Positions 6,964 to 37,393 of a DNA stretch of 39,073 nt are shown piece after piece. The position numbers and the translations under genes were made by a program. This stretch comes from a virus. Below the pieces are notes generated by a model. It did no database searches and was not told the DNA's origin. It saw only the letters and a program-made list of their open reading frames with translations. The stretch's first letter is position 1. Each line of letters opens with the position of its first letter. Where the stretch lies: positions 1-39,073 of IMG/VR virus record IMGVR_UViG_3300008110_000663, one strand, 5' to 3'.

Positions 6964-7013
6964 TTGACAACGCTATTTACGTGTAGTATATTCTTTACAT
7001 CAAGTTCGGAGGA
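6964..7013 (+). promoter_or_regulatory. Accessory promoter-leader A
   Basis: -35 TTGACA (6964-6969), 17-nt spacer, -10 TATATT (6987-6992), then ACATCAAGTTC and SD GGAGGA (7008-7013), ATG at 7021. Best example of the dispersed promoter-leader element. Confidence 0.9.
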
Positions 7014-7020
7014 AACAAAA

Positions 7021-7245
7021 ATGACCACAGAAATCAAGACAATCATCCACAAGTTGGACGCAACCGCAATGAAGGCAATCGCCCTCAACACCCTTTTCGG
7101 TGACTACGACCTCGATACCGTAGTCCGCACGGTAGAAACCCTCACCGAGTGGAACAACACTCGTGAAAACGACGAGATTGGCAAGTTCATCGAAGAACTC
7201 AACAATCGTGCATGGGGAATGTTTGAGAAGGAGGTGACCAAGTGA
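7021..7245 (+). CDS. Small acidic accessory protein, EW-motif family
   Basis: 74 aa, predicted all-helical. 'DYDLDTVVRTVETLTEWNN' resembles 'DTDLDTIASVLDEAIEWNK' in the gene at 16388, and more loosely the gene at 16644, so a small paralogous family sits behind the same promoter type. ATG chosen because the SD of leader A lies 7 nt upstream; a longer frame would run into the promoter. Its stop overlaps a GTG of the next frame. Function unknown; small acidic early-type proteins of phages often target host enzymes, but nothing here shows a target. Confidence 0.8.
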   Translation: MTTEIKTIIHKLDATAMKAIALNTLFGDYDLDTVVRTVETLTEWNNTRENDEIGKFIEELNNRAWGMFEKEVTK

Positions 7246-9556: not shown

Positions 9557-10242
9557 TAGAGTGACCTAACTACCATTCGAAGTGGGCCAAAGATTTGTAC
9601 GTCATCTTCACCACCATTCCGCTCAACATAGATTTTGTATGTCCCAGCGACATTCGTGTACGAGGTGAGGAGAGGAAAGGTAAGCCTTCCTCCCGGTGCA
9701 TAGACAATCGTGCCTTGTGTCGGGTAGGTCGTACCAGCGGCACTGACGACACGAACCCATAACGTGGTATTCGCAATCGAGACTTCCCCGCCTTCGCTGT
9801 CAAGAAGGATGAGTTCGATGTCATGGCTTGCCCCCTTGAAGATGTCGATGGCGACATCCTTGATGCCAACCCCACCAGCACTGTTGAGTTTGAAAGGCCC
9901 CATACGCAAGTCGTATGCCCCGATGTCGCTAAGTCCCAAGTCGGACGAGTCATATGGGTCGTAGTTAACAACCAGAATCTCACGGTCAGTTGGGTCAGCA
10001 CCCGGAGCCTCAGCATGGACAACCAGCGAGCCAGCCGTGTCAGTATCCGTTGCTGTCGGTGCTAGTCTATACCAACCGTATCCCATCTCGGTTATGTTTC
10101 CAGCAGGAGTGATGAAGTTGCCACCATTCTTACTTATGAGGACAACAGGAGTCTTACTGATAGCCCCGGTGATATGGTCAGTGGAATTTATAAGAAGGAA
10201 TGGAATGACCTTTCCCGTGCTTCCTGTTTTTAGTGTCAGCAT
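9556..10242 (-). CDS. Virion protein with BppU-like modules
   Basis: 228 aa in two modules. Residues 1-95 ('GNFITPAGNITEMGYGWYRL', 'ILVVNYDPYD') match the N-terminal module of the 17675-18841 protein. Residues ~125-228 ('GASHDIELILLDSEGGEVSI' to 'IFGPLRMVVRSL') share the C-terminus with spike B. Such modules occur in phage proteins that attach receptor-binding parts to the tail tip. Start overlaps the stop of the repeat fibre by 7 nt (ATGCTGA), so all three are coupled. Confidence 0.65.
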   Translation of the reverse strand: MLTLKTGSTGKVIPFLLINSTDHITGAISKTPVVLISKNGGNFITPAGNITEMGYGWYRLAPTATDTDTAGSLVVHAEAPGADPTDREILVVNYDPYDSSDLGLSDIGAYDLRMGPFKLNSAGGVGIKDVAIDIFKGASHDIELILLDSEGGEVSIANTTLWVRVVSAAGTTYPTQGTIVYAPGGRLTFPLLTSYTNVAGTYKIYVERNGGEDDVQIFGPLRMVVRSL

Positions 10243-13200
10243 TTGTGTTCCTGCCTTGTCATAACTCTCTCTCCAAGTGTACGTCGGAATACTATTCCAG
10301 TTGGTGTCGTGATAGTTGCGTAAAGGTTTGCTACGGCAGTTAGACTCGTTCTAGGCAAGAAGAGTGGAGGCACTGTAGGTAGCGAAGTTGAACCGAAGTG
10401 AATTGCGAGCGATGTACTCGCCACTTGAGCAACGCCTACTATCCCACTAGACACACCATTGCGTTGCACTGAACCTATGGCGGATACTTGTGCTATGCCA
10501 ACAATCGATGATGAACCGAACTCAGTTATGCTCAACGAGCCTGTTAATGATGCTCGCCCAACCAATGAAGCCGTTGGGAATGTAGTGTCAGGCACGGCGT
10601 TTATAGTCGCCAAACTCAAAAGACCAGCATTACCAACAACTTGCACGGAAGCCGTAGACGACAGAGACGCTGTTGCCGTCATACCGGACGAGCCCAATAT
10701 CAGGCTGTTTACACTGCCAAGCAACGTCCCAACACCAACCAACGTAGAAGAAGGTTGAGCGACGATACGTCCAATCCCATCCGTTGAGGCGATTCCGTAT
10801 ATGGAAGCCGAACCTGATGTCTGTTGCCCCGGGAATCCAGTGAGGATAGCGAACGCATTCAATCCAGCACTTGACGACTGAACTATAGTCGAGTTGGCTG
10901 TTATCGAGCCGACACCTGTAATCGAGCCTGTTGCGAATGAATCCTTTGACGCATTTGCATTAACAGTTCCAACACCAACTATCGAAGATGTGCCTGACTG
11001 AACAAAGACAGTTGGTGACGCTGATATAGTTGCCACCCCAGATAGGGATGAGGTTGCACCGATTACTTTCGAACTTACCGCTGAAAGGGTTGCCACACCC
11101 GTGAGCGAAGAAGTCGGCTGGGCGTTTGATTGACCTACTGCGGCAACAGTGGCGACTCCAGCGAGCGATGAAGTCGGAACATACATATTCGACCCAACCG
11201 CTGTGATAGTCGCAACCCCACTGAGAGTACGAGAGTTCGCATAGATGACATTGCCTTGCGAGGTAACTGTTGCTATTCCAGTAATACTCGCCGAGCCGAA
11301 TGTCCCAATACTTCCAACTACAGATACATTGGCAAACGCAGTAGGATTAGCAACCGGAGTCATCAACTTGGTCGCATTAGCCACTATGCTTGCAATGCCA
11401 CTGAGTGAAGAAGAGACCCGATGCTCAAGCCCACCATTCTGAGTAACAGTAGCGACACCCGTTATAGAAGCGTTTGCCCTGTCCTCAATGCTACTGGTTG
11501 CAGTGATGGTAGCAACACCAGTAAAGGATGCTGTTACACCACCTTGGACAAAGGCTACGGCTGAAATGGTAGCCAGTCCGCTCAGAGACGACGTTGTCCC
11601 AAAGACAGACCGACCTGTTGCCGCTATACCTCCAACGCCAACAAGTGATGTGTTCGCACCAGCAATAACTTGACCAGTGCCAACCGTTGACCCTACGCCA
11701 GTTATGCTTGCTGTAGCCCTATCCTCAATGCTACCAACAGAAGTTACCGAGGCAATTCCCGTGATGGATGCTGACCCCGTGACAATGTTCTGAGAGACCG
11801 TAGTACCGACGGCACTAATCGACGCTACACCACTAATAGAAGCGGAAGCCCCATCGATTGTCTGTGAGACCGCACTGATTGATGCGATACCCGTCAGAGA
11901 CGTGACATTACCGAAGACAGCGTTCCCAACAGCAGTGACCGTACCGATACCCGAAATAGATGAAGAACCACGTTTCTCTGGGATGCCAACCGCTGAGATT
12001 GTTGCTACACCAGATAGTGAAGAGGTCGAACCATATATATAAACGGCATTAGCGGTGATTGATGCAACACCCGATAACGACGACCCGCTATTTTGCTGTC
12101 GCACCCCAGAACTAGAGACACTTGCAATTCCAGACAACGAGGAAGTAGTCCCAGCGATGTATGTAGAAGAAGCCGTGACTGTAGCGATACCAGAGATTGA
12201 CGATACTGGTTGATGATTGACACTACCTGAGCCAGATGTTGATGCAACACCATTGATGCTCGCCGAACCAAGAACCGTAGTAGCAGTTTGACCAACAAGT
12301 GTTGCAAGACCAGTTAATGACGAAGTTGTGCCAGCAGTATATGAAGGTGTTCCAGATACACTCGCCACACCCGCAATCGTTGCCGTCGGTTGAGCAAATT
12401 TGATTGCAACAGCCGATACTGATGCCACCCCACTAATCGAAGATGTCGATGCGGTAATGACGTTACCGACGCTTGACATTGTTGCAACGCCACTAATAGA
12501 TGCCAATGGCGTACGCTGGACACTGGCACTACTCGATATAGTTGCCACGCCACTCAGTGAAGATGTTGTGGCAAAGATTGCATTACCAACACTGGATATA
12601 GAACCGACACCAGTTAGCGACGAAGACGGCGTGACTACATTTGTTGCCGCACCTGTAATCGAGGCTACACCAGAACTAGATGAAGTCGTAGCAAATACCG
12701 CATTACCGACACTGGATACGGACGATACTCCACTCAGTGAGGCTGAGGATAGGTTGAGTTCACTTCCGACAGCATTTACCGTCCCTACGCCATTTAGTGA
12801 TGATGAATGGACAGAGATAGTGTTTCCGGTCGCACTTACAGAACCGACACCAGACAGAGACGCTGATGCTCGGAGTTCATTTGTTGCTATCAGGGTCACA
12901 CTACTGAATGCCGTCAACGAACCTGAAGGAGTCATCAGATTCGTCGCATTACCAACGATGGAACCAACCCCACTCAGTGATGCTTGACCAATTTGCAAAG
13001 AAGATGTGATTGCGGTGAGCGTTGCAACGCCCGTGACTGAGGACGTACTACCCGCAATGTAAGTCGAAGCACCACTGGTTGATGCAACACCTGATATCGA
13101 AGATGATGGCTGGGCTACGAAGTTACCTGTGGCACTAAGAGTCCCAACACCACTTATAGAGGATGAAGCCCCATTTGTCTTTTGAGGCACAGCCGAAATC

Positions 13201-13808
13201 GTACTGACACCATTAAGCGATGAAACACCGCCGAACACAGCGTTCGAAACACCACTGACCGCACCGACACCAGTCAATGACGACGATGGCTGTGCGTTAT
13301 TCAGACCAACCCCGGACATGGTTGCCACGCCAGATATCGATGACGTGGATGGAGTAATGAAGTTACCAACGGCACTCAGAGAGGCGACACCTGAGATTGA
13401 CGAAATCCCTAGGACAAGGCGGGATGAAACCCCACTAGTAGTCGCTACACCACTGATAGATGATGTCGGTTGAGCAATAACTTGACCAACAGGAGTAATC
13501 GTTGCCACACCAGACAACGATGAGGTCGGCTGGGCGACGAGGTTACCTGTCCCTGTGACCGTCGCAACCCCACTGATTGAGGATGACGGCGTACGCAAAA
13601 CGGACGCTGGGGCTGTAACAGACGCAACGGCTGAGGAAGATGACGAGCCGACAACCAACAGGCTCGACACCGCCACGACACTAGCCACCCCGCTGAGACT
13701 AGCCGAGGTAGTGTGTACCGTACCTCCACCAGTGGCTCCAAATGAACGAAGGAACCAGCGGAAGTATGAGTAAAAAGCAGGGCCAATAGTTGGTTCTATG
13801 TCAGCCAT
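10236..13808 (-). CDS. Giant repeat fibre, about 55 tandem 20-residue repeats
   Basis: 1190 aa. After ~35 N-terminal residues ('MADIEPTIGPAFYSYFRWFL') almost the entire protein is a 20-residue repeat, consensus SS(L/I)(S/T)GVA(T/S)(I/V)SAVG followed by seven variable residues. I counted about 55 copies with rare 19-, 21- or 24-residue units. A short non-repeat tail ends 'TLGERVMTRQEHKC'. A fixed 20-residue period with alternating small and hydrophobic positions suggests a beta-solenoid with one coil per repeat. Context among spike genes and an operon coupled to them implies a long virion fibre. No close named family recognised. Confidence 0.75.
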   Translation of the reverse strand: MADIEPTIGPAFYSYFRWFLRSFGATGGGTVHTTSASLSGVASVVAVSSLLVVGSSSSSAVASVTAPASVLRTPSSSISGVATVTGTGNLVAQPTSSLSGVATITPVGQVIAQPTSSISGVATTSGVSSRLVLGISSISGVASLSAVGNFITPSTSSISGVATMSGVGLNNAQPSSSLTGVGAVSGVSNAVFGGVSSLNGVSTISAVPQKTNGASSSISGVGTLSATGNFVAQPSSSISGVASTSGASTYIAGSTSSVTGVATLTAITSSLQIGQASLSGVGSIVGNATNLMTPSGSLTAFSSVTLIATNELRASASLSGVGSVSATGNTISVHSSSLNGVGTVNAVGSELNLSSASLSGVSSVSSVGNAVFATTSSSSGVASITGAATNVVTPSSSLTGVGSISSVGNAIFATTSSLSGVATISSSASVQRTPLASISGVATMSSVGNVITASTSSISGVASVSAVAIKFAQPTATIAGVASVSGTPSYTAGTTSSLTGLATLVGQTATTVLGSASINGVASTSGSGSVNHQPVSSISGIATVTASSTYIAGTTSSLSGIASVSSSGVRQQNSGSSLSGVASITANAVYIYGSTSSLSGVATISAVGIPEKRGSSSISGIGTVTAVGNAVFGNVTSLTGIASISAVSQTIDGASASISGVASISAVGTTVSQNIVTGSASITGIASVTSVGSIEDRATASITGVGSTVGTGQVIAGANTSLVGVGGIAATGRSVFGTTSSLSGLATISAVAFVQGGVTASFTGVATITATSSIEDRANASITGVATVTQNGGLEHRVSSSLSGIASIVANATKLMTPVANPTAFANVSVVGSIGTFGSASITGIATVTSQGNVIYANSRTLSGVATITAVGSNMYVPTSSLAGVATVAAVGQSNAQPTSSLTGVATLSAVSSKVIGATSSLSGVATISASPTVFVQSGTSSIVGVGTVNANASKDSFATGSITGVGSITANSTIVQSSSAGLNAFAILTGFPGQQTSGSASIYGIASTDGIGRIVAQPSSTLVGVGTLLGSVNSLILGSSGMTATASLSSTASVQVVGNAGLLSLATINAVPDTTFPTASLVGRASLTGSLSITEFGSSSIVGIAQVSAIGSVQRNGVSSGIVGVAQVASTSLAIHFGSTSLPTVPPLFLPRTSLTAVANLYATITTPTGIVFRRTLGERVMTRQEHKC

Positions 13809-13951: not shown

Positions 13952-14281
13952 CTAGTGAGTGATTAGCCCAGCACAACGATATGTGTTTTCTTTATCTTCA
14001 GGGTATGAAAAGCAATCACCCATTGTCAACACATCCGCCCTATGAGCATCTGGATGCTTATGAACATCCCTCGTTACAATGAAGAACGTGTTTTTCTTCC
14101 TCTTAGGAAGTTCAGCACTAAGATGACTAACTCGCTTCCGAATCCTTATTCCGTTCATACTTGCACGTTCGACAAGTCCTGTACAAACCACGATATTGCC
14201 CGATGCTGGAATACGGGTTTCAGATTCTCCACTACGAATAACAACAGTGAGACCCGTCAGGTTAACAAACTTGACTTCCAT
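13952..14281 (-). CDS. Small phage protein, 'FVNLT' family
   Basis: 109 aa, 'MEVKFVNLTGLTVVIRSG', 'TRIPASGNIVVC', 'SAELPKRKKNTFFIVTRDV', 'HRADVLTMGD'. This order (FVNLTPH..., I.PSG..A, LP....T..IVS..V, R.DV..P) is that of a widespread small phage family of unknown role, usually encoded as a lone accessory gene. It has its own promoter-leader (14289-14339) and terminator hairpin, so it is an independent cassette between fibre and lysis genes. The ATG is placed by the GGAGGAG SD 7 nt upstream. Confidence 0.8.
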   Translation of the reverse strand: MEVKFVNLTGLTVVIRSGESETRIPASGNIVVCTGLVERASMNGIRIRKRVSHLSAELPKRKKNTFFIVTRDVHKHPDAHRADVLTMGDCFSYPEDKENTYRCAGLITH

Positions 14282-14288
14282 TTGTTGA

Positions 14289-14339
14289 CTCCTCCAAACT
14301 TGATGTCTATAGTATTGCACAAATAAATAGACTTGTCAA
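14289..14339 (-). promoter_or_regulatory. Accessory promoter-leader G
   Basis: Minus strand: TTGACA (14339-14334), 17-nt spacer, AATACT (14316-14311), ACATCAAGTTT, SD GGAGGAG (14295-14289), ATG at 14281. Confidence 0.9.
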
Positions 14340-14374: not shown

Positions 14375-14524
14375 AAAAACGACGTAAGGGCATCACCCCG
14401 GAAGGTTCTGCCCTTAACGCCAATCAAGTTCCGCACGGGGAGCGTACATAGTACCCTCAGCAAACAGCCAGTCTTTTTAGTGAATAGTGCTTGCGGTGAA
14501 TCACCCGTGCTAGGAGGTTCACTT
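14375..14524 (-). ncRNA. Candidate structured antisense small RNA
   Basis: Gene-free stretch with its own promoter (14531-14559) and an intrinsic terminator. Predicted RNA of ~150 nt. Helices seen by eye (minus strand): GUGAA/UUCAC near the 5' end enclosing CCUCCU; CCGCA (14496-14492) with UGCGG (14435-14431); within it AGCA/UGCU and a hairpin GAGgGUAC-UAU-GUACgCUC (14458-14440); terminator stem UAAGGGCA (14416-14409)/UGCCCUUA (14392-14385), then UUUUU (14379-14375). The linker between the CCGCA helix and the terminator is AACUUGAUUGG, the reverse complement of the shared leader motif (C)AAUCAAGUU. An 11-codon frame (MYAPRAELDWR) exists inside but seems incidental. Not matched to a known RNA class. 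Confidence 0.55.
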
Positions 14525-14530
14525 GGATTG

Positions 14531-14559
14531 ATAATAGGTCATAAAAAAACAGTTGTCAA
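14531..14559 (-). promoter_or_regulatory. Promoter of the candidate small RNA
   Basis: TTGACA (14559-14554, overlapping the stop codon of the gene at 14556), 17-nt spacer, TATTAT (14536-14531). The expected start is near 14524. No SD-start codon pair follows at normal distance. Confidence 0.75.
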
Positions 14560-14900
14560 GTGTTCTTTCTTGCTTTATTCCTGACCTCTGAGCGATGAAG
14601 CCGTTCGAGTTCATGTATGTAGGCAAGTTTCCAAGCCCTAGTAACGAAGTAGATGGGCATCTCCTCGTCGTCATGCACGATGATATGAGCGGCAAAGATG
14701 ACCTTGGGTTGAAGTTCGTTAGTAATAAGTTCGATGGTTATCGTTGCTGTTTGACCAGTGGGACACCAAGTCACGGCGATGAGTTCCTCTTTGACAAGAG
14801 CCTCAGCCGTGACCTTGGAGCATATACCCTTGAACGCCGACAAGAGAAGAGCCTTTCGGACTGCATTCTCTATAAGCGGCAGTAGGGCTTGGTCGAACAT
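14556..14900 (-). CDS. Hypothetical protein coupled to endolysin
   Basis: 114 aa, 'MFDQALLPLIENAVRKALLL...VTWCPTGQTATITIELITNE...VIFAAHIIVHDD...HELERLHRSEVRNKARKNT'. Start overlaps the endolysin stop (TGATG). An amphipathic N-terminal helix, a beta-rich middle and a basic C-terminal helix; no membrane segment or signal peptide, so it does not look like a spanin or holin. Coupling suggests a lysis or late role, but no function can be assigned. Confidence 0.65.
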   Translation of the reverse strand: MFDQALLPLIENAVRKALLLSAFKGICSKVTAEALVKEELIAVTWCPTGQTATITIELITNELQPKVIFAAHIIVHDDEEMPIYFVTRAWKLAYIHELERLHRSEVRNKARKNT

Positions 14901-15536: not shown

Positions 15537-15764
15537 TCATTTTTGTAACCTGATTAACTTTGCCATACCCCTGTCACACACTTCCCAGTCTGTGGCAACG
15601 ATATCCCTATATGTCAGCGTTAGAGTACGTTTTGTGTCGTCACTATAGTTCTCCAAAATGAAGTCATCAACGACGACATAACAAAGGGCTCTCAAGCCCC
15701 ACCCTTGTCGGTATATACCCATACCGTCCTTGTTCGCACTCTTGAATGCTTGACTGAATTTCAT
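15537..15764 (-). CDS. DUF2829/Tad2-like protein (possible anti-Thoeris)
   Basis: 75 aa. 'MKFSQAFKSANKDGMGIYRQGW' (a helix followed by R..GW at 19-22), 'YVVVDDFI' and 'TYRDIVATDWEV' (51-62) reproduce the DUF2829 pattern (M.f.eAl..lk.G..v.R.gWn....yl......l...DilA.DW.v). Members such as Tad2 sequester the signalling nucleotide of Thoeris defence; many DUF2829 proteins are untested, and ligand residues cannot be checked by eye. Second gene of a cassette with its own promoter (16104-16133) and terminator (15505-15530); start overlaps the previous stop (ATGA). Confidence 0.6.
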   Translation of the reverse strand: MKFSQAFKSANKDGMGIYRQGWGLRALCYVVVDDFILENYSDDTKRTLTLTYRDIVATDWEVCDRGMAKLIRLQK

Positions 15765-16044: not shown

Positions 16045-16133
16045 CCTCCACAAGCCCCGTACAGGGGCAGAACTTGATTCATCAGCACATTACTGACACC
16101 GGAATAATACAACGCCTAAAAACCATTTGTCAA
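16045..16133 (-). promoter_or_regulatory. Accessory promoter-leader J with extra hairpin
   Basis: TTGACA (16133-16128), 18-nt spacer, TATTAT (16109-16104); later GAATCAAGTTC (16079-16070), a small hairpin GCCCC-TGTAC-GGGGC (16068-16054) and SD GGAGG (16049-16045). It is a variant of the shared leader with a hairpin inserted between motif and SD and a longer 5' untranslated region. Confidence 0.75.
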
Positions 16134-16161: not shown

Positions 16162-16212
16162 TTGACATACTCAATATCCTGAGCAATACTATTGACATCA
16201 AGTTCGAAGAGG
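16162..16212 (+). promoter_or_regulatory. Accessory promoter-leader C
   Basis: TTGACA (16162-16167), 17-nt spacer, AATACT (16185-16190), ACATCAAGTTC, SD GAAGAGG ending at 16212, ATG at 16221. Divergent from promoter J; their -35 boxes are only 28 nt apart. Confidence 0.88.
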
Positions 16213-16220
16213 TAAACACA

Positions 16221-16391
16221 ATGACAGTTATGCAACGCAAGCAAATGGCAATCGCAAAGGTATCCGCTAACGGCGGACGTGCCATGAAGTTGAAGAAACA
16301 AGATGGTTACCTCGTAACAATGAACGGTGAATACATCACCCTCAAGTCACTCGTCGCACTGGAAGCATACGCACAAGGATTGGCAAAATGA
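16221..16391 (+). CDS. Small basic accessory protein (56 aa)
   Basis: 56 aa, 'MTVMQRKQMAIAKVSANGGR', then 'MKLKKQDGYLVTMNGEYITL' and 'LVALEAYAQGLAK'. Basic N-terminal half, a probable beta-hairpin, then a helix. ATG follows the SD of leader C by 8 nt; the stop overlaps the next ATG (ATGA). No family recognised. Confidence 0.75.
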   Translation: MTVMQRKQMAIAKVSANGGRAMKLKKQDGYLVTMNGEYITLKSLVALEAYAQGLAK

Positions 16392-16586: not shown

Positions 16587-16636
16587 TTGACATTACGTTT
16601 AGTGTGTGCAATACTCTTTACATCAAGTTCGGAGGA
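16587..16636 (+). promoter_or_regulatory. Accessory promoter-leader D
   Basis: TTGACA (16587-16592), 17-nt spacer, AATACT (16610-16615), ACATCAAGTTC, SD GGAGGA (16631-16636). ATG at 16644 has the same SD spacing as leader A. Confidence 0.9.
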
Positions 16637-16643
16637 AATGAAA

Positions 16644-16820
16644 ATGAAGATGACAACTGTAAGAGCCTTGGTTGACCTGAACATCAAGGTCGTCACCACT
16701 AGGAAAAATGAAGAGGCAATCGCCACATACACCAAGTGGTATCGCCAAGGAATGATGAGCGAGGTTGAATTGTTCACCCGCATCGCCGAACTGTTTGCAA
16801 ATGAGGAGGAGTCGAAATGA
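16644..16820 (+). CDS. Small accessory protein, EW/KW-motif family (58 aa)
   Basis: 58 aa, 'MKMTTVRALVDLNIKVVTTR', then 'AIATYTKWYRQGMMSEVELF' and 'RIAELFANEEESK'. Same short helix-turn-helix layout with a central Trp and acidic C-terminus as the genes at 7021 and 16388, though similarity is weak. ATGs at 16638 and 16650 are alternatives; 16644 keeps the SD distance seen in leader A. Stop overlaps the next start (ATGA). Confidence 0.75.
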   Translation: MKMTTVRALVDLNIKVVTTRKNEEAIATYTKWYRQGMMSEVELFTRIAELFANEEESK

Positions 16821-31162: not shown

Positions 31163-31170
31163 TTTGTTTA

Positions 31171-31221
31171 CTCCTCGAACTTGATTGTCAATAGTATTGC
31201 ACACTAAAAGGCTGTTGTCAA
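31171..31221 (-). promoter_or_regulatory. Accessory promoter-leader H
   Basis: TTGACA (31221-31216), 17-nt spacer, AATACT (31198-31193), CAATCAAGTTC, SD GAGGAG (31176-31171), ATG at 31162. Confidence 0.9.
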
Positions 31222-31239: not shown

Positions 31240-31497
31240 TTATTCAGATGCACTCAACTCAATGAGTGCCTTGTACTCACAGATGGCATTCGCCATGAGG
31301 ATACGCTCCTCTTCCTTGCGGAACTCAGTACAAGCGAAACAGCAAGCGTGTCCCTCGAACTCGTAGGAGTCGCCCTCCTCGTATGTCCAGACTTGAGTGT
31401 CTGTCACTTCAACGATTTCCTCCAACTGACCACAGTCAGTGCAAACCGCTACTTGACCGACCTTGATGTCATTGGTGATTGTTGTTGTTACTTTCAT
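31240..31497 (-). CDS. Small zinc-ribbon-like protein
   Basis: 85 aa with two Cys pairs: 'VCTDCGQ' near residue 19 and 'CCFACTEF' near residue 58, about 36 residues apart, as in rubredoxin-like zinc ribbons. An acidic helix follows ('FRKEEERILMANAICEYKAL'). The ATG is fixed by SD GAGGAG in leader I. Likely metal-binding; partner unknown. Confidence 0.75.
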   Translation of the reverse strand: MKVTTTITNDIKVGQVAVCTDCGQLEEIVEVTDTQVWTYEEGDSYEFEGHACCFACTEFRKEEERILMANAICEYKALIELSASE

Positions 31498-31504
31498 TTG
31501 CTTA

Positions 31505-31556
31505 CTCCTCGAACTTGATTGATTAGAGTATCGCATACACTTTACATACTTGTCAA
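31505..31556 (-). promoter_or_regulatory. Accessory promoter-leader I
   Basis: TTGACA (31556-31551), 18-nt spacer, GATACT (31532-31527), CTAATCAATCAAGTTC, SD GAGGAG (31510-31505), ATG at 31497. The -35 lies inside a dyad TACTTG-A-CAAGTA that could be an operator. Confidence 0.85.
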
Positions 31557-36604: not shown

Positions 36605-36660
36605 TTGACATTACATTATCCGTGTAGTATTCTCTTTACATCAAGTTCGATTCGGAGGAA
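36605..36660 (+). promoter_or_regulatory. Accessory promoter-leader E
   Basis: TTGACA (36605-36610), 17-nt spacer, TATTCT (36628-36633), ACATCAAGTTC, GATTC insertion, SD GGAGG, ATG at 36667. Divergent from the packaging-operon promoter. Confidence 0.9.
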
Positions 36661-36666
36661 ACAACA

Positions 36667-37035
36667 ATGGAAGCAATGGTTACAGATTTCGTCAACAGCA
36701 TCGTCATCGCTGAAGACTACAATGTCTTCACCTACCTCGAGGATTCTGACCCACGGTCAGATGACCTTCATCGTTGCGAACCACAGACAATGTCTGAGGT
36801 TGGTGTCCTCTGGGGACGCACCATCATCAATGGTGAGTTCAAAAACTTCAACGAGGGAGACAACACCCTCATTACCAGTGCAATCGCTCAATGCATTGCA
36901 TACCCAATCAAAGACGTATACGCCGAGTACTCCAAGTGGGGCGTATTCATCCGTGTCGTCACAACAGATGACTACATCTACGAGTTCAACTGTCACGGGA
37001 AGATGGACTATTCCTCACTAGTGTGGAACTCCTAA
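36667..37035 (+). CDS. Accessory protein, unknown
   Basis: 122 aa, acidic: 'MEAMVTDFVNSIVIAEDYNV', 'SEVGVLWGRTIINGEFKNFN', 'AEYSKWGVFIRVVTTDDYIY'. Mixed alpha/beta, no membrane segment. Own promoter-leader, no terminator before the next promoter 20 nt downstream. No family recognised. Confidence 0.75.
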   Translation: MEAMVTDFVNSIVIAEDYNVFTYLEDSDPRSDDLHRCEPQTMSEVGVLWGRTIINGEFKNFNEGDNTLITSAIAQCIAYPIKDVYAEYSKWGVFIRVVTTDDYIYEFNCHGKMDYSSLVWNS

Positions 37036-37054: not shown

Positions 37055-37106
37055 TTGACAACACTGTAAATCATGTTCTATACTCTAATCAATCAAGTTA
37101 TGGAGG
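37055..37106 (+). promoter_or_regulatory. Accessory promoter-leader F
   Basis: TTGACA (37055-37060), 18-nt spacer, TATACT (37079-37084), CTAATCAATCAAGTTA, SD GGAGG (37102-37106), ATG at 37115. Confidence 0.88.
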
Positions 37107-37114
37107 CGACAACA

Positions 37115-37393
37115 ATGAAAACTTTCAACACCACCAAGGAGGTCATTATGACACCACAATATCTTCACGACTGCGAGTCGTGTACGTTCCTCGGACAGCA
37201 CGGAAGTGCTGACCTTTACACTTGCAATCAGTTCGATTGCATCATTGTGAGGTACTCCTCACAAGACAGCGATAACGTCGCATATCGCTGGAACATCATC
37301 GAGCGATTCGGACTCGATAGCATCGACAATCTCGATGTACTCGAGGCGTACCGCCGAGCGGTAAGACTCCAAAAGGAGTTAGCAAGCAACTAA
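37115..37393 (+). CDS. Small Cys-rich accessory protein
   Basis: 92 aa. 'HDCESCTFLGQHGSADLYTC' followed by 'NQFDCIIVRYSSQDSDNVAY' resembles a widespread small phage family with C..C.fLG....D.Y.C, probably zinc-binding. The C-terminal helix is 'VLEAYRRAVRLQKELASN'. ATG placed by SD GGAGG in leader F. A terminator overlaps its stop codon. Confidence 0.7.
   Translation: MKTFNTTKEVIMTPQYLHDCESCTFLGQHGSADLYTCNQFDCIIVRYSSQDSDNVAYRWNIIERFGLDSIDNLDVLEAYRRAVRLQKELASN

Follow-up and report, generated by a model that had tools for sequence, protein, structure and literature searches.

A region of about 150 nt on the minus strand of a phage genome (positions 14375 to 14524) looks, from its sequence, like a gene for an independent, structured RNA that has a promoter to itself and a fold that is kept in a relative. 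Computed duplexes support a non-random complementarity of this RNA to the leaders and Shine-Dalgarno (SD) sequences of phage messages, for the 16 leaders of the phage and most of the 26 in the relative. On balance, and with modest confidence, it is read as a phage-encoded trans-acting antisense RNA that represses the regulon of leadered genes. Positions refer to the window, the whole stretch of DNA that was analyzed (39,073 nt of sequence); the source record of the phage, G000, is a virus record of 57,097 bases. An earlier note on this DNA had proposed an antisense RNA at this place. Its observation is real, and the complementarity is real and longer than stated, but details of the fold and the number of leaders had to be revised.

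The RNA gene and its homologue

The RNA lies in a gene-free stretch, as had been noted, which is flanked by the stop of the gene at 14556-14900 (-) and by an accessory operon with its promoter start at 14339 (-). The good promoter claimed for it is of the sigma-70 type, TTGACA-17-TATTAT, at 14531-14559 (-), and matches the consensus in 11 of 12 bases; the end of the -10 element at 14531 places the +1 at A14524, in agreement with the claim. At the other end the U-tail reaches 14375, with U5 (14375-14379) following the 3' hairpin. Of the proposed intrinsic terminator, the hairpin with U5 is present in the window, but a simple scan calls no terminator in the window or the relative, where the U-run behind the hairpin is degraded to GUCGUUUAAGG. 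The Rfam covariance models (c4, 6S, riboswitches and other listed families) gave no match at gathering score, the best sub-threshold hit having E > 1. Downstream of the RNA, 10236-13808 (-) encodes a 1190-aa repeat protein without PHROG match, the N-terminus of which is retained in the relative. A small protein encoded at 15537-15764 (-) has a Pfam Tad2-like match (Thoeris anti-defence 2-like domain, E = 4e-6).

The folding energy of the RNA is -62.2 kcal/mol, versus -47.1 +/- 4.1 kcal/mol for shuffles (z = -3.65; 0 of 200 shuffles as good), and with the structure kept in the relative the earlier description of several helices holds. Alignment with the relative gives a central helix P3 formed by GCACGGG (14504-14510, -) and CCCGUGC (14433-14439, -). 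The variable hairpin P4 (14460-14494, -) shows compensatory changes in the relative, and the 3' hairpin P6 (14381-14421, -), followed in the window by U5, has one compensatory pair. The CCGCA/UGCGG helix described previously is absent from the minimum-energy fold, in which GCACGGG/CCCGUGC and UCC/GGA are present instead. CCUCCU (14512-14517, -), formerly placed in a hairpin loop, is computed to lie in a stem plus internal loop; in the unbound RNA its UCC is paired to GGA, and in the predicted duplex CCUCCU pairs with the leader SD. The linker GAACUUGAUUGG (14420-14431, -) is invariant in the relative. With the +1 at A14524 it is loosely paired, with unpaired probabilities of 0.81 for A96 and C97, 0.84 for G100 and 0.24-0.28 for four others. 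If the start lies upstream of 14524, the longer 5' end of the RNA pairs with the linker, which is then mostly occupied. Sequestration of the linker by the RNA's own 5' end was considered and retained only as a caveat, as the pairing uses mostly bases upstream of the +1 and the linker is loose from the +1.

Two relatives (IMGVR 3300006040_000009 and 3300027091_000001) were found via the neighboring gene, the protein of which is 80% identical; over the stretch read, the two do not differ from each other. In both, the RNA lies behind the same upstream gene, with the promoter (TTGACA-17-TAAAAT) and the fold kept. The alignment of the RNA in window and relative contains 49 pairs, 3 of them with changes on both sides (compensatory), and conservation starts about one base ahead of the predicted +1. 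Segment by segment, identical columns amount to 32 of 33 (5' part), 26 of 37 (P4), 36 of 38 (P5 to the end of the linker) and 35 of 41 (P6). With a covariance model made from these two sequences, no additional copy was detected in other related terminase-bearing records, in other records with leader-like matches or in chance hits; two extra hits of the pattern scan (L105, L106) were left out of this scoring. Pattern scans of viral contigs, a scan of genome contigs and a scan with the N-terminus of the tail gene found only the two near-identical relatives. For two records (G008, G004) the missing hit is uninformative, because the leader positions suggest that these records stop short of the locus. 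Other records of the genus apparently do not cover it, and both of the lineages with records known to span it have the RNA.

Inside the RNA lies a possible 11-codon ORF, MYAPRAELDWR (14414-14449, -), closely preceded by the purine-rich GAGGG, which resembles an SD. Its start (ATG, TTG in the relative), frame and stop (TAA, TAG in the relative) are retained, as would suit an attenuator in which translation of MYAPRAELDWR as a leader peptide controls the 3' hairpin before the tail-fibre-like gene. Such an attenuator is very improbable: the 12 codons contain no synonymous change at 82% nucleotide identity of the adjoining gene, which suggests that conservation of the ORF probably acts at the RNA level, the ORF is without regulatory codons, and in the window the RNA is separated from the tail gene by an accessory operon that has a promoter of its own.

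The shared leaders and their predicted pairing with the RNA

In related records of the genus the leadered promoters have the layout TTGACA-17/18-[-10]; behind it, at a constant distance, come A, AA or AG and then UCAAGUU. UCAAGUU lies exactly at +1 to +5 in 58 of 79 unique consensus promoters, much of the remainder being leaderless starts or non-genic matches. Since the spacing between motif and SD varies, the motif is tied to the +1 and not to the start codon. The 57-kb record G000 and the relative G002 hold 42 leaders (16 and 26, respectively), all of which start at the predicted +1; A(R)UCAAGUU is the beginning of nearly every one. The eleven leaders counted previously were not recovered as such: by the criteria used, nine leaders in the window match TCAAGTT exactly, and the 57-kb record has 16 with consensus promoters. 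The complete promoter-leader combination was detected only in the phage's own group, plus scattered look-alikes.

Target promoters with leaders on the plus strand are located at 6964-7023 (AUCAAGUUCGGAGG, followed by AUG), 16162-16221 (AUCAAGUUCGAAGAGG), 16587-16646 (AUCAAGUUCGGAGG), 36605-36669 (AUCAAGUUCGAUUCGGAGG) and 37055-37117 (AAUCAAGUUAUGGAGG); those on the minus strand are at 31497-31556 and 31163-31221 (both AAUCAAGUUCGAGGAG) and, adjoining the RNA gene, at 14278-14339 (AUCAAGUUUGGAGGAG). The leadered genes are read as early genes. Their products in the phage are mostly short among those listed, and a family scan gave, for the products scanned, no match except weak partial ones for a single product, L090:9891-10220. 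At L091 ~7321 and L096 ~17431 the motif of a leadered promoter lies in a self-hairpin (UCAAGUUACUUGA), without a clear SD and start close behind; these leaders are possibly further noncoding RNA. A second apparent RNA at 16133 (-), with AAUCAAGUU, was set aside because it looks like a 5' UTR. The succession of consensus promoter, hairpin, AAUCAA(G/A)U and second hairpin seen there (16133 to ~16050, -) is found in three genus records, the other places being L003 ~3787 and L097 ~1198.

The linker portion AACUUGAUUGG (14420-14430) is complementary to the leaders over 8 to 11 nt, as had been reported, and GAACUUGAUU within the linker is complementary to leader positions +1 to +10. In 100,000 dinucleotide shuffles AACUUGAU arose by chance in 0.35%, and the 10-nt complement GAACUUGAUU in 0.03%. 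Duplexes were computed using RNAcofold for the 42 leaders of the two genomes, each against the RNA of its own genome. Nearly throughout among the leaders listed, the predicted interaction is a nested two-part duplex in which the linker GAACUUGAU(U) sits on leader +1 to +9/10, CCUCC(U) sits on the SD and P3 is kept between; the suggestion that CCUCCU could pair with the SD agrees with the prediction for most leaders.

Mean binding was -12.4 kcal/mol for the 16 leaders of the phage and -10.8 kcal/mol for the 26 of the relative, versus control means of -4.8 for shuffled leaders in both genomes and -4.2 for 38 non-leader starts. Alteration in silico gave -7.0 for the linker and -8.3 for CCUCCU, and shuffled RNAs bound with a mean of -6.3, with 0 of 150 attaining the observed mean. 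The consensus leader was bound at least as strongly by 3 of 1,900 other 150-nt stretches of the window, a set from which stretches antisense to leaders and the RNA itself were omitted. The weakest leader in the relative (-4.2) is self-folding and without a clear SD and start close behind. An upstream start of the RNA weakens the pairing, more so in the relative (-10.8 to -7.0), because the extended 5' end masks the linker. The leader variants AGUCAAGUU and AUCAGGUU still pair through G-U and AACAAGUU and AUCCAGUU do not fit, a wobble pattern that comprises a handful of events, with A-to-G a common change anyway. In 60 of 70, the base after the leader motif is C or U, either of which can pair with G.

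Proposed mode of action and alternatives

P3 would bring the linker GAACUUGAUU and CCUCC(U) together for joint pairing with the 5' end of the leader (+1 to +9/10) and the SD. Bound in trans to the leadered messages, as the computed binding suggests, the RNA would block the entry of ribosomes, and most early and accessory genes would be turned down together, with translational shut-off or dosage control as a plausible role. One RNA could act in this way on most of these genes at once, by computation on at least 16 own messages. As its address the RNA would read the near-invariant 5' tag A(R)UCAAGUU; the leader is fixed to the -10 and starts at the +1 with variable spacing to the SD, as expected of a tag on the 5' end of an RNA. 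The wider proposal, that the non-structural regulon of the phage genus is run by an RNA and not by a repressor protein via a common 9-nt tag at the front of almost every early or accessory message, is tentative. Leaderless operons had been expected to be immune; this is doubtful, since in three genomes codons 2-4 of the apparently leaderless ssb (ATG = predicted +1) contain AAUCAAGUA (L090 ~14872, -; L091 ~3355; L096 ~13749). In G000 the Pfam SSB domain starts at the Met of the predicted +1. The presence of AAUCAAGUA in ssb carries little weight, because about half of the nearby codons are identical between the two genomes compared.

Only two lineages have the RNA, and in these hardly any change is seen in leader or linker; it counts against the antisense reading that their variation between the two is too small to show compensatory change. 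P3, the junction UGAUUCACC and the hairpin P5 are conserved like the linker, which antisense pairing does not explain. Conservation reaching well past the linker, together with a tail-fibre-like gene directly after the RNA in the relative, would suit an RNA with another job, such as protein or ribosome binding or that of a 5' element for the tail-fibre-like gene that lies downstream. A(R)UCAAGUU would then be a DNA operator read by a phage protein, or an initially transcribed element, and the complementarity would be coincidental or secondary. The motif keeps a fixed position relative to the -10 and extends across the +1, the expected place of a repressor operator, and HTH_3 proteins occur in 3 of 3 records searched, in the phage's own behind a promoter with the leader. 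Neither an integrase nor a resolvase, which would have pointed to lysogeny, was found in the records searched. This main rival is rather unlikely, given the 0.03% chance of the 10-nt complement, the fact that CCUCC is there as well, placed and oriented so as to permit one nested duplex, and the tolerance of that duplex for varying leader-SD spacing.

Because the promoter class is common to both, the RNA and its targets may be made together, a point counted against repression. Plausible co-expression, and a pairing confined to precisely the 9-10 nt at the start of the message, are what would be expected if the RNA paired with leadered 5' ends to protect or activate them (masking against decay), the SD pairing being weak or transient. 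Such protection is improbable, as in most leaders the SD, too, is paired in the predicted duplex, and antisense repression is the reading preferred here.

Comparison with known systems

DicF (Qin) and 24B_1 (Phi24B) are trans-acting phage or prophage sRNAs that silence messages, DicF by base pairing; the targets of these and other trans-acting phage sRNAs described are one or a few messages (PMC12197685). The candidate is likewise a small phage RNA, but it matches a 5' tag common to at least 16 operons of the phage. Its complementarity to the RBS regions of targets goes beyond chance, as is characteristic of trans-acting base-pairing sRNAs. P22 sar and lambda OOP are cis-encoded phage antisense RNAs that block translation or induce decay (PMC12197685). 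All are complementary to phage mRNA, but these are encoded opposite their target and the candidate at a separate locus: 15 of its 16 targets lie at distant loci, and the one next to it, the leader at 14339, has the strand of the RNA itself. The c4 RNA of P1/P7 and the CI RNA of P4 have an immunity role with a single target operon and pair, through short single-stranded segments, with stretches within or close to the target leader. The candidate would likewise be antisense via short segments, but is without an Rfam match.

The Start-Associated Sequences (SAS) of cluster K mycobacteriophages are a short motif repeated at many non-structural gene starts (PMC3203893, PMC12699233). Whether their reader is an RNA or a protein was left open in 2011 (PMC3203893), and in 2025 experimental verification was still called for (PMC12699233). 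SAS contains the SD and lies near the start codon (13-bp GGGATAGGAGCCC, 3-7 bp before start codons), whereas A(R)TCAAGTT is fixed to the promoter and +1, at variable distances, and is without sequence kinship to SAS. A single reverse-oriented SAS copy, between annotated genes in Anaya and CrimD and inside annotated gene 92 in Angelica, forms part of a predicted stem with the apical loop CCUCCUAUCC, which is complementary to the SAS core. This stem-loop was located in a cluster K subset (L107 34740-34960, i.e. Anaya 59739-59959; L108, L109, L111, L122). The region is matched by 188 Mycobacterium phage records, and among the records compared LilPharaoh and Peanam also have the stem-loop sequence. 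A parallel general to cluster K was dismissed, since others, for example Oscar and MarkPhew, have the promoter-proximal part with a different loop and without the CCUCCUAUCC sequence. If the antisense reading is true, control of a phage regulon would operate at the RNA level, with one RNA reading a common 5' tag on at least 16 operons, and a testable answer would be suggested for the existence of repeated leader motifs such as SAS.
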